A stretch of 20,979 nt of DNA from a virus: positions 1 through 20,979 of IMG/VR virus record IMGVR_UViG_3300037427_000577; one strand, written 5' to 3'. How positions within the stretch are numbered: the stretch's first letter is position 1; every line of letters starts with the position of its first letter. Below the pieces are notes generated by a model. The model saw only the letters and a program-made list of their open reading frames with translations. It did no database searches and was not told where the DNA came from. Made by a program: the position numbers and the translations under genes. Positions 6,380 through 10,224 of the stretch are shown here, piece by piece.

Positions 6380-6456
6380 GCACCCATAGTTCAACTGGAT
6401 AGAACATCGGCCTTCTAAGCCGAGGGTTGGAGGTTCGAGTCCTCCTGGGTGCGCCA
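6380..6456 (+). tRNA. tRNA-Arg (anticodon UCU), CCA encoded
   Basis: A complete cloverleaf can be drawn. Acceptor GCACCCA (6380-6386) pairs with TGGGTGC (6446-6452), followed by G and an encoded CCA (6454-6456). Anticodon stem TCGGC/GCCGA encloses loop CTTCTAA with anticodon TCT at 6414-6416. The T arm GGAGG-TTCGAGT-CCTCC is perfect. It reads AGA, the arginine codon that dominates these AT-rich phage genes. It lies seven bases after the 76-aa gene, so it is probably processed from that transcript. Confidence 0.96.
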
Positions 6457-6459
6457 TTT

Positions 6460-6467
6460 TATAAATA
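6460..6467 (+). promoter_or_regulatory. Possible late promoter (TATAAATA) after the tRNA
   Basis: TATAAATA begins four bases after the tRNA CCA. A T4-type late start would fall near 6473, which is the ATG of the zinc-ribbon gene, so the message would be leaderless. The motif occurs by chance inside other genes here (for example 2001 and 14104), so confidence is low. Confidence 0.3.
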
Positions 6468-6472
6468 CTAGT

Positions 6473-6646
6473 ATGGACACTAATCATCTAAAATGTAGAG
6501 CTCCTAAATGCAAATACGTAGGTCCGGTATTACACTTTGCATTCATATATAATACCACTCTTTGCCCCTCCTGCGCTACTAAATTAATCTATCAAAAGAA
6601 TTTAGCATCGAGTAATTTACTCTGGAAAAAGGTTATAACTCGTTAG
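6473..6646 (+). CDS. Small zinc-ribbon-like protein
   Basis: 57 residues from the ATG at 6473. The open frame extends back into the tRNA, but a start there is not credible, so the first ATG after the tRNA is chosen; there is no clear Shine-Dalgarno sequence. Cysteine pairs C-x4-C (CRAPKC) and C-x2-C (CPSC), about 22 residues apart, look like a zinc knuckle/ribbon; the rest is short and basic (pI high). Such proteins in phages often bind nucleic acid or RNA polymerase, but no function can be assigned. It may have its own late promoter at 6460. Confidence 0.6.
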   Translation: MDTNHLKCRAPKCKYVGPVLHFAFIYNTTLCPSCATKLIYQKNLASSNLLWKKVITR

Positions 6647-6677
6647 CAATCGTCACAGTTACGTGAATTTTCGTCAG
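6641..6677. repeat. Phased CGT array, left inverted-repeat copy
   Basis: CGT occurs at 6641, 6651, 6662 and 6672, at spacings of 10, 11 and 10 bases, that is, on one face of the helix. Bases 6662-6677 are the exact reverse complement of 8965-8980, a 16-base inverted repeat that brackets the VWA gene. Located just upstream of that gene's promoter, it looks like a protein-binding site. The first CGT lies inside the end of the zinc-ribbon gene. Confidence 0.55.
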
Positions 6678-6692
6678 TTTTTGATCTTTTTT

Positions 6693-6705
6693 GGGGGGAG
6701 GGGGG
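6693..6705. other. G6-A-G6 tract next to promoter
   Basis: Two runs of six G separated by one A, after six T, directly upstream of the -35 box of the VWA-gene promoter. Shorter G-runs sit at the same place in all the related promoters of the window, so this is an exaggerated version of a promoter feature. Homopolymer length here is also a point where assembly could err. Confidence 0.5.
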
Positions 6706-6734
6706 TTCTCAAGCACTCAAAAATACGGTATAAT
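6706..6734 (+). promoter_or_regulatory. Promoter of the zincin-VWA gene
   Basis: TTCTCA (6706-6711), 17-base spacer ending TACGG, TATAAT (6729-6734). The -35 is weaker than the TTTACA of its relatives. From 6718 onwards it matches the AAA+ gene promoter over nearly 40 bases, including the AT-rich leader ATAAATTAAAAAAA and the AGGAG ribosome site. The weak -35 beside a phased repeat suggests activator dependence. Confidence 0.75.
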
Positions 6735-6767
6735 ACACACATAAATTAAAAAAATAAGGAGTTTTTA

Positions 6768-8963
6768 ATGATACAAAGTTCAATACTACCAAAGCTACTA
6801 GCTAAGGAAAACATTACTATTCAGCATGGTAACTATCATACTGCATGGTTCGATGTTGAAAAACGTGTACTTGGTTTACCTATGTGGAAAGATATGGGTA
6901 AAGATGTATATGATCTTTTGGTTGGACACGAAGTATCACACGCTCTACATACCCCATTCGAAGGTTGGCACGATAGCCCAGAAAAATTAGAAGGTGCTCC
7001 AAGGTCATACCTTAACGTTGTAGAAGATGCACGTATCGAAAGATTTATCAAAAACATATATCCCGGTTTAGTTGGACCTATGGCACGAGGTTATAAAGTA
7101 CTTCACCAAGAAGGGTTCTTCGGCGATGTAGATAAATTAGAATGGGACGAAGTTAAGCTTATCGATAAGCTAAACATTAAAGCTAAATTAGATCATTTAG
7201 CAGAGGTTCCTTTGGATTCAGAAGAACAGGTTTTCTTAGATAGAATGATGACAACCCAAACATTCGAAGAGGTTGTACAATTAGCTAAAGATATCCTAGA
7301 TTATACCAAAGAGAATCAACCAGAATTATTAGAGCCACAACCTTTACCAGAATCAAATGAAGATGAGGGTATACAAGAAGGCGAAGATAATCTTCCACAG
7401 GGACATGACGATATGGATCCACAGGAAGGTTTACAAGAAGAAGAAACAGTTTCAGAAGATTCTGATTCTGCAGATGGGGAAGAATCCGACGATTGCAAAG
7501 AGGACAATAAAAACAGCTCAGAAGGCAACGAAGATGAAACCCCATCCGCGGATGATGATTTCGAAGGTGATGCATTAAATCCTACAATCTCAGAGCAACC
7601 TACATATTCAGAAGAAGACGTATCTAAGACGGATCAGGCTTTACGTAGGTCAGAGTCTAGATTATTAGATACTGACGATAATGGCGAAAGTCAAGCAGTT
7701 CTAATTAATGAAGTTAAAAAAGATCTTAGAAAAAAAGTTGTTATTGACTACCAAACGTTAAGTAAAGCTAGAGCTAAGATAGAAGATTCTGATTCTAGTA
7801 AATATAACGGCTATAGTGAATATGTGAAATCTACAAAAAAAGCTGTTAACTTCGCTGTTAGAGAATTTGAACAAAGAAAAGCTGCTTACCAATACACCAG
7901 AGCACAAACAGCTAAAACCGGTCGTATTGACGTTAACAAACTTTGGTCTTATAAAACCTCTGAAGATATATTTTCCCAGGTTACAAGATTAGCAGATGCT
8001 AAAAACCACGGTATGATAATGCTCGTAGACTTTTCTGGTTCAATGTGTAACTCAATGCCATATGTAATGGATCAGTTATTACACTTAGTTATGTTTTGTA
8101 AATCAGTTAACATACCATTCGACGTTTATGGATTTACTAGCACTAACCCAAACATTAAAGACGAAAGCACTTATAATTCAGACGGTGACTTACACCTAAA
8201 CGGATTATCAATGCCACTTATTTGTTCTTCTTCTCTTAAGAAATCAGATTATGAAAACGCTATCAAGCACATGTATGGAAGAAAGACTAATAATTACTAT
8301 TGGGATAGTCTTTGTTCATACGAAGAATATGGTTCAACTCCTTTGGATCAAGCTCTTATAGTTTCGCACCACTTAGTAAAAGAATTTAAAATCAAGCACG
8401 GTGTGCAAAAAATGAATTTTATTACTTTTACAGATGGGGATTCAAACGGAATAAGTGCTATCCAGGATAGAAGATTAGAAGACAAAAAAATGGACACTAA
8501 TGGATATTCTGCAGGCTATAAAGCTATCATCGACGGTAAGCTTACTGATCTAGGAAGAAGATACAACTCAACTAAAAATCTTTTAGAAAGCTTAGGCAAA
8601 AGATATAATACCAAAACTATCGGATTCTTCATGGCAGATGATTCAGCTCACTGGAGAGATAGATTATATAATATGAGAAGGGATATGCTAAAAGGCGAAT
8701 ACGATTGGGAAGATAATGACAATTTTAAGAAAGAAGCTGCTAAAGAATACAGAAGAAACAAATGCGTTTCTAAGCAGAACGTATTTGGATATGACCAATA
8801 CTACCTATTAAAAGGTGGCAAACAACTATCTGCAGAAGATGAAGAATTCGAAACATTCGGAACTGAGACCGATGCTCAACTAAGGAATGCATTTAAAAAG
8901 CACTCCAAATCTAAAAAACTAAATAAAGTTCTTATGACATCATTTGGTAAAGAGGTGGCTTAA
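6768..8963 (+). CDS. Zincin-like plus VWA (CobT-like) protein
   Basis: 731 residues. Residues 1-160 carry HEVSH (54-58) inside LLVGHEVSHALHTP and a downstream VVEDARIER, a zinc-metallopeptidase-like (gluzincin) arrangement. Residues about 185-290 are an extreme Glu/Asp-rich linker, as in CobT and related chelatase subunits. From about 410 there is a von Willebrand factor A domain with an intact MIDAS: DFSGS (D421, S423, S425), a Thr in GSTPLD and FTDGD with D556. Its neighbour is a MoxR/CobS-type AAA+ ATPase, the usual partner of such VWA proteins in metal chelatases and protein-remodelling machines. No CobN-type chelatase large subunit is visible, so cobalt insertion is unproven. Start supported by AAGGAG upstream. 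T4 itself lacks this gene; it occurs in marine T4-like phages. Confidence 0.85.
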   Translation: MIQSSILPKLLAKENITIQHGNYHTAWFDVEKRVLGLPMWKDMGKDVYDLLVGHEVSHALHTPFEGWHDSPEKLEGAPRSYLNVVEDARIERFIKNIYPGLVGPMARGYKVLHQEGFFGDVDKLEWDEVKLIDKLNIKAKLDHLAEVPLDSEEQVFLDRMMTTQTFEEVVQLAKDILDYTKENQPELLEPQPLPESNEDEGIQEGEDNLPQGHDDMDPQEGLQEEETVSEDSDSADGEESDDCKEDNKNSSEGNEDETPSADDDFEGDALNPTISEQPTYSEEDVSKTDQALRRSESRLLDTDDNGESQAVLINEVKKDLRKKVVIDYQTLSKARAKIEDSDSSKYNGYSEYVKSTKKAVNFAVREFEQRKAAYQYTRAQTAKTGRIDVNKLWSYKTSEDIFSQVTRLADAKNHGMIMLVDFSGSMCNSMPYVMDQLLHLVMFCKSVNIPFDVYGFTSTNPNIKDESTYNSDGDLHLNGLSMPLICSSSLKKSDYENAIKHMYGRKTNNYYWDSLCSYEEYGSTPLDQALIVSHHLVKEFKIKHGVQKMNFITFTDGDSNGISAIQDRRLEDKKMDTNGYSAGYKAIIDGKLTDLGRRYNSTKNLLESLGKRYNTKTIGFFMADDSAHWRDRLYNMRRDMLKGEYDWEDNDNFKKEAAKEYRRNKCVSKQNVFGYDQYYLLKGGKQLSAEDEEFETFGTETDAQLRNAFKKHSKSKKLNKVLMTSFGKEVA

Positions 8964-8964
8964 T

Positions 8965-8991
8965 CTGACGAAAATTCACGAAAAAGACACG
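8965..8991. repeat. Phased ACG array, right inverted-repeat copy
   Basis: ACG (mostly ACGAAA) at 8968, 8978 and 8989, spacings 10 and 11. Bases 8965-8980 are an exact inverted copy of 6662-6677, and the similarity continues at a lower level. It starts immediately after the VWA stop codon and lies upstream of the AAA+ promoter. Confidence 0.55.
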
Positions 8992-9000
8992 AAAGGGGGG

Positions 9001-9029
9001 TTTACAAAGGTCCAAAAATACGGTATAAT
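9001..9029 (+). promoter_or_regulatory. Promoter of the AAA+ gene
   Basis: Preceded by six G: TTTACA (9001-9006), 17-base spacer ending TACGG, TATAAT (9024-9029). From 9013 it is nearly identical to the VWA-gene promoter and leader. GAGGAG before the start codon. Confidence 0.85.
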
Positions 9030-9069: not shown

Positions 9070-10224
9070 ATGAAAAAGAGTGAAATGAGACAATCAACCA
9101 AAATTATCTTAGAAGAAATATCTAAGAAATTTCCTGGTCAAACAGACTTCCGTAGGGCAATCATCGAAGATATTGCTAAGTCTTTTGGCTATACCCAGAA
9201 GGATTATTATCCTTTACTTCAACCAAGCAATCGTGTTAAAATCGGTACTTATTCATTAGACGGTTTATTACCTAAGGATATTACAATGGATCCTATTCCA
9301 GCAAACGCAGCTACTATGGCTCAATCAGTTACTTCATTTGGTAATGAAGAAAGAACCTTCGCAGAAGTAGATCCTACTTTCGTAGCTTGGGGTTCTTATA
9401 CGGACATTATGAAAATTATTAAATCAGAAATGTTTTATCCCACATACGTTTCTGGCCTATCTGGGAATGGTAAAACATTTATGGTCGAACAAGCTTGTGC
9501 AAAAGCAGGCAGAGAATTTATTAGGGTTCAAATTAACCCAGAAACCGACGAAGATGATTTGCTCGGTGGATTCAGATTGATTAACGGCGAAACCGTTTTC
9601 TGTAAAGGTCCAGTACTAAAAGCTATGGAGAATGGCGCAGTACTTCTACTCGACGAGATCGATAGGGCTACAAACAAGATTATGTGTCTTCAAGGTGTGC
9701 TCGAGGGCAAACCAGTTCTTGTTAAGAAAACTGGTGAAACAATTAAACCTACAAAAGGTTTTAATGTTATCGCTACCGCTAACACGAAAGGTAAAGGTTC
9801 CGAAGATGGACGATTTACCGCAGCTTCTATAATCGACGAAGCTTTCCTAGAAAGGTTTACTATATCAATCGATCAACAATTTCCATCTGCTTCAATCGAA
9901 AAGAAAATCCTCAACAAGCACATGGATAAATTCGATGTTAAAGATGATGAGTTTGTAGATAGATTGGTTACTTGGGCAGATATTATTAGAAAGACTTTCT
10001 TCGACGATGGTGTTGATGAAGTTATTTCTACTCGTAGGCTCTGCCACGTTGTACAAACTTTTTCTATCTTTACGGATAGAATGAAAGCGATTGACCTATG
10101 TATTTCTAGATTCGATGAAGATACTAAGGCAGCTTTCCTAGATCTTTACACTAAGGTCGACTCAGGTGTTCTAACCACAGATTCCGAAGTAGAAGACTTT
10201 GACCATCAAACAGAAGAGGTATAA
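9070..10224 (+). CDS. MoxR/CobS-like AAA+ ATPase
   Basis: 384 residues. An N-terminal helical region (1-60) precedes a AAA+ core: Walker A GLSGNGKT (129-136), Walker B LLLDEID with D195/E196, sensor 1 in GFNVIATANT (about 235-245), and an arginine-finger-like EAFLERF (about 257-263). This is the MoxR/CobS branch, whose members form hexamers and act with VWA partners to load metal into a chelatase or remodel proteins. The partner is very likely the adjacent VWA protein: the two genes share near-identical promoters and leaders. Cyanophage homologues are usually labelled cobS; the true substrate in phage is not known to me. A one-base-plus gap (10224/10227) links it to the next gene. ATPase assignment is firm, the pathway is not. 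Confidence 0.9.
   Translation: MKKSEMRQSTKIILEEISKKFPGQTDFRRAIIEDIAKSFGYTQKDYYPLLQPSNRVKIGTYSLDGLLPKDITMDPIPANAATMAQSVTSFGNEERTFAEVDPTFVAWGSYTDIMKIIKSEMFYPTYVSGLSGNGKTFMVEQACAKAGREFIRVQINPETDEDDLLGGFRLINGETVFCKGPVLKAMENGAVLLLDEIDRATNKIMCLQGVLEGKPVLVKKTGETIKPTKGFNVIATANTKGKGSEDGRFTAASIIDEAFLERFTISIDQQFPSASIEKKILNKHMDKFDVKDDEFVDRLVTWADIIRKTFFDDGVDEVISTRRLCHVVQTFSIFTDRMKAIDLCISRFDEDTKAAFLDLYTKVDSGVLTTDSEVEDFDHQTEEV

Follow-up and report, generated by a model that had tools for sequence, protein, structure and literature searches.

Helically phased repeat arrays in uncultured marine T4-like phages as the mark of a putative second promoter class

Results and discussion

Short direct repeats with a period of 10-11 bp stand upstream of two promoters in the window (the whole 20,979-nucleotide stretch of viral DNA analyzed, IMG/VR record IMGVR_UViG_3300037427_000577), and about 45 distinct promoters of uncultured marine T4-like phages carry arrays of the same kind (units CGTSA/TSACG, with the wider core GTNAC). 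On balance we favor the reading, drawn from sequence patterns, that these arrays are tandem boxes for an activator that would bind head-to-tail along one face of the helix, in the manner of OmpR and PhoB, and that is more likely to be encoded by the host than by the phage. For marine T4-like phages with no recognized MotA-type middle promoters, the timing of gene expression is, to our knowledge, an open question.

Arrays and promoters in the window

The elements concerned, from the first array to the end of the second gene, are as follows.

6641..6679, + strand: array 5' of the VWA-gene promoter, 'F' orientation, with units CGTTAGC (6641), CGTCACA (6651), CGTGAAT (6662) and CGTCAGT (6672); units conserved in L004, L005 and L007-L017
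6693..6705, + strand: G-rich spacer GGGGGGAGGGGGG between the array and the -35 hexamer
6706..6734, + strand: sigma70-type promoter of the VWA gene (-35 TTCTCA, 6706-6711; CGG, 6726-6728; TATAAT, 6729-6734)
6768..8963, + strand: VWA/CobT-like gene ('peptidase', phrog_459), 731 aa
8964..8991, - strand: array 5' of the MoxR-gene promoter, 'R' orientation, with units TCTGACG (8964-8970), ATTCACG (8974-8980) and AGACACG (8985-8991)
9001..9029, + strand: sigma70-type promoter of the MoxR gene (TTTACA, 9001-9006; CGG, 9021-9023; TATAAT, 9024-9029)
9070..10224, + strand: gene for a MoxR-type AAA ATPase (CobS-like, phrog_249; Pfam AAA_5), 384 aa

The original prediction had placed phased CGT triplets at 6641, 6651, 6662 and 6672 and ACG triplets at 8968, 8978 and 8989; all seven coordinates are correct, and its statement that every other promoter in the window lacks such an array holds on a promoter scan. 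Relative to the -35 hexamer, the CG steps are centered at -64.5, -54.5, -43.5 and -33.5 in the VWA array and at -31.5, -21.5 and -10.5 in the MoxR array. The outermost VWA unit (6641) overlaps the final codon and stop of a small upstream ORF ending at 6646, and its conservation is absent in L005. The VWA promoter itself has a weak -35 hexamer, and CGG replaces the TGG of an extended -10 element; the G-rich spacer accompanies an array that is displaced by about one helical turn upstream with respect to most F-type promoters.

Several further features of this region were recorded. The G-run directly 5' of the weak TTCTCA hexamer is found in L005 as well as in the window, and a G precedes the -35 hexamer at position -1 in 45 of 45 array promoters and at -2 in 43 of 45, a preference that is also frequent in non-array promoters. 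The small upstream ORF (6449-6646), which lies between a tRNA-Arg and the VWA promoter, is cysteine-rich and zinc-ribbon-like in appearance and has no Pfam or PHROG match; a tRNA was the sole Rfam match in the window.

Bases 6662-6677 (CGTGAATTTTCGTCAG) and 8965-8980 (CTGACGAAAATTCACG) are indeed exact reverse complements, as had been noted before, and form the only exact 16-mer inverted pair in the window. At least one 16-bp inverted pair occurred, though, in eight of 40 dinucleotide-shuffled windows, so that the repeat alone is weak evidence and is not significant window-wide; with the comparison confined to the two short spacers it is significant, none of 2,000 shuffles having reached 14. 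The case therefore rests on relatives. The repeat arises because the VWA array is F-oriented and the MoxR array R-oriented, with both near the clade consensus, and looping is not required to explain it.

Conservation of the helical register in relatives

Homologous spacers were collected from IMG/VR through relatives of the VWA protein, confirmed by tblastn. Phased CGTSA/TSACG units stand 5' of the VWA promoter, the MoxR promoter or both in L004-L017, the L004 MoxR promoter having lost them. Counted from the start of the -35 hexamer, the CG steps fall at -10.5, -21.5, -31.5/-32.5, -42.5/-43.5, -53.5/-54.5 and -64.5, and across two dozen promoters this register is the same regardless of orientation, gene or clade. 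Pooling all loci brings the number of array promoters to 71 and that of gene families to at least nine; many of these promoters are homologous, such that the counts are not independent, and the non-homologous promoters of G001 (a 130-kb relative) and the differing gene families are the better guide. In distant clades the repeats take the GTNAC form (TGTTACA, TGTCACA), pairs exactly 11 bp apart being observed 12 times with 0.03 expected, and the unit nearest to the -10 element lies only at 35-36/57 or at 41-43/51-53/62-63 nt from it. The motif variants track phage clades. The comparison with related phages that had been proposed thus bears out the proposed spacing of 10-11 bp, together with the promoter register, including at unrelated genes.

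By inspection, no array was seen in the isolated relatives HTVC008M, Mosig, P-SSM4, AG-345-F15 and C48C1, and a query made of array plus promoter had zero BLAST matches among 50,697 phage records. Two other features of the homologous spacers are recorded here. In L019-L036 and other loci, RTGAAAAAAA recurs at intervals of about 10 bp close to the -35 hexamer of the VWA or MoxR promoter, possibly as an A-tract or UP-type substitute for GTNAC arrays. A conserved hairpin-like insert (GCGTGAATATGGCAAGGTTAACCCCTTGCTTCGCTGT...AGTGACGCTG) lies between VWA and MoxR, just 3' of VWA, in L026, L030, L031, L034, L035, L050 and L061/L062, and is possibly a structured RNA or a mobile element.

A two-unit core box and its two sets of distances

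The commonest array is a two-unit box, CGTCACAATYNCGTGAAC, which is sometimes extended to three to five units. IMG/VR contains 48 copies of this 18-bp core, 45 of them immediately 5' of a sigma70-type promoter (the -35 hexamer being TATACA in three of these). Its start lies 32, 33 or 43 bases from the -35 hexamer in the F orientation and 27 or 37 bases in the R orientation, the R-type box being the reverse complement of the F-type; written as a 17-mer (6+5+6), the box lies 33/43 nt from the -10 element for R and 37-38/48 nt from it for F. Promoter distance is thus quantized by helical turns, with reverse boxes half a turn off, and the orientation of a box predicts which of the two combs it uses. 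An asymmetric activator that binds in tandem and has to face RNA polymerase is expected to leave two such combs, offset by half a turn.

Association with loss of the extended -10 element

The window and its close relatives contain 74 sigma70-type promoter matches. Of the 19 with CGG before the -10 hexamer, 18 carry arrays, versus three of the 55 others; for G001 alone the figures are four of four and one of about 15 (Fisher, 0.0013). A scan of IMG/VR in which promoters were selected only by their CGG core gave 59 distinct upstream regions, 25 of which have phased pairs, with CG dinucleotides piling up at -10.5 (11 occurrences), -21.5 (20) and -31.5/-32.5 (22). The phase concentration of CG at these promoters (R = 0.44) exceeds the shuffle maximum of 0.28, an effect that is absent at TGG promoters. 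Position -15 is occupied by C in 31 of the 45 distinct array promoters, by T in 13 and by A in one; most of the 45 have a TTTAC-type -35 hexamer, with the box upstream of it. The arrays would accordingly seem to mark a second class of phage promoter, and the loss of the extended -10 element would fit dependence on an activator.

Genes served and a proposed mechanism

The array promoters serve at least nine genes that are not homologous to one another, among them the MoxR/CobS-like and VWA/CobT-like genes, a PNKP-type phosphatase and a DNA ligase. In G001, arrays precede five promoters, namely those of VWA, MoxR, a short ORF followed by the PNKP-type phosphatase gene, a 166-aa protein and a 104-aa protein. 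The motif thus appears to mark a co-regulated gene set that a putative activator would switch. Directly 5' of one array promoter of G001 is a gene (L085:617-2464) that encodes CHASE2 and class III adenylate/guanylate cyclase domains (Pfam E-values 5e-36 and 2e-19), an unusual cargo for a T4-like phage.

In the mechanism that we propose, each unit (CGTSA in the window's clade, GTNAC more widely) would be a half-site, probably read in the major groove, and head-to-tail units every 10-11 bp would align protein monomers on the face of the helix toward RNA polymerase. The bound protein would then bring the sigma70 RNA polymerase of the host to promoters whose own strength is usually reduced by a missing extended -10 element (a T-to-C change near -15) and, for VWA, by a poor -35 hexamer as well. 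A box would be active in either orientation provided that it lies on the right face, giving the two sets of distances from the -10 element, half a turn apart. The rule is sharp enough for members of the regulon to be discovered by pattern search (at least five promoters in G001 and at least nine gene families overall), and it predicts that the CobS/CobT-like ATPase pair and genes for nucleic-acid repair are under the control of an activator that binds in tandem on one face, probably a response regulator of the host.

The search for a candidate binder

The OmpR-type DNA-binding domain (PF00486, Trans_reg_C) is absent from nine related phage records, and the Pfam families listed for the small ORFs of G001, a genome that may be incomplete, include no HTH or RHH regulator; the listing covers all but five weak families. 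The absence of a regulator from the nine records makes a host protein or an unrecognized phage protein the likely binder. Two regulon proteins were considered as autoregulators and rejected, since their AlphaFold folds are not winged helices; one is a helix plus an SH3-like barrel and the other an alpha/beta protein with no significant PDB match. No promoter of the species-representative genomes carries the 21-bp form of the box; a single coding-region match, in Colwellia, lies inside an AraC-like-looking coding sequence and was taken as chance. In 24 small gammaproteobacterial genomes, taken as candidates, the motif was not in excess over a reversed-pattern control. A phage-encoded ribosomal protein S21 (L083:11729-11980) is closest, among the genomes searched, to small gammaproteobacterial genomes (57%), which we treat as a host lead only.

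Alternative readings of the arrays

The arrays might instead bind a phage-encoded activator of an unrecognized family, a counterpart of T4 MotA that would recognize phased CGTSA units in either orientation, would have co-evolved with the loss of the extended -10 element, and would set up a separate timing class of genes. We regard this as a tentative alternative. The box is restricted to contigs of phages (with 45 of 48 viral matches at promoters and no promoter match in species-representative genomes), several of the served genes resemble phage nucleic-acid functions, and the variants follow phage clades, all of which would suit such a protein; against it, no candidate DNA-binding protein was found, the two modeled regulon proteins included. 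A repressor or silencer that polymerizes on one side of the helix between about -65 and the extended -10 element, with the CG at -15 as its last contact, seems unlikely to us. That CG lies roughly three turns from the unit at -10.5 and shares the phase of the array, as would also suit a protein covering the promoter, and the base counts at -15 show the change to be specific. The -35 hexamer and the spacer are free of units, however, and the box usually ends 9-25 bp 5' of the -35 hexamer, as is typical of activators; a repressor would moreover be redundant, since CGG destroys the extended -10 element, and 13 array promoters keep TGG.

Readings in which the arrays act through the DNA itself, by intrinsic curvature or as UP elements for the alpha C-terminal domains of RNA polymerase, are very improbable: some units do contain A-tracts (TTCACGAAAA), and the RTGAAAAAAA repeats of distant clades have a similar period, but many arrays have no A-tract (for example TTTCGTCACAATCACGTGAACAATGC in L216 and L184) and still keep the CG register, and the invariant part is the GC-containing CGTSA/GTNAC. 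The original prediction had offered a one-face regulator site or, alternatively, a pair of looping sites. Conserved spacing and register strongly support the former. The latter, in which a protein would bridge the two ends of the VWA gene, accounts for the exact 16-bp inverted repeat at those ends but has almost no probability left, given that arrays occur elsewhere at single promoters (L083, L085 and others) and that the position of each array is locked to its own promoter and not to the other array. We reject looping because the combinations of F and R vary between phages, with same-facing arrays in L012, L014, L016 and L017.

Comparison with known systems

The T4 middle promoters, which depend on MotA and AsiA, are a distinct activator-dependent class in which the MotA box, at about -30, replaces the -35 hexamer. 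Array promoters resemble them in forming a distinct, putatively activator-dependent class in a T4-like genome; identity was rejected, as the -35 hexamer is usually kept, with the site farther upstream. Nor do the arrays match UP elements, whose A/T-only tracts lie between about -40 and -60, given that the invariant units of the arrays contain GC. The alphaproteobacterial LexA box (GTTC-N7-GTTC) is present in the MoxR arrays of L007 and L009 and absent from the window and most arrays, and both this and a symmetric-dimer reading were set aside, with only some units fitting.

Likenesses to the OmpR/PhoB family are closer. TGTCAC-N5-TGTCAC forms in L042, L069 and L139 resemble what we take to be the Escherichia coli Pho box consensus, and the MoxR promoters of L007 (there TTCACGAAAAGTTCAC) and L009 have TTCAC-N6-TTCAC, the tag of CreB/BlrA (TTCACN6TTCAC; PMC4689548). 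In contrast to boxes of this family, the phage arrays have two to five units, lie mostly 5' of an intact -35 hexamer and are tied to loss of the extended -10 element, and no cognate regulator was found in the phage records or candidate host genomes searched. In the cyanophages S-PM2d and P-SSM2, which are likewise marine and T4-like, promoters contain boxes for host PhoB (with EMSA for S-PM2d), such that a host two-component response regulator controls them (PMC10976474); those boxes are PyTTAAPyPy repeats and are not described as phase-locked arrays. This precedent may tip the balance slightly toward a host response regulator, and a host-encoded activator would tie phage expression to the physiological state of the host, as PhoB does in cyanophages.

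The PhoP boxes of Salmonella offer the closest parallel in geometry: in experiments, tandem half-sites 11 bp apart are active in both orientations, in the same pair of combs offset by half a turn, direct at 12, 23 or 33 nt and reversed at 27, 37 or 48 nt from the -10 element (PMC3335776). The sum of the direct and reverse gaps is unaffected by the framing of the half-site; it comes to 7.5 modulo 10.5 for PhoP and to 7-8 for the phage box, an agreement with a chance of roughly one in seven that is supportive of a PhoP-like arrangement, not proof of it.
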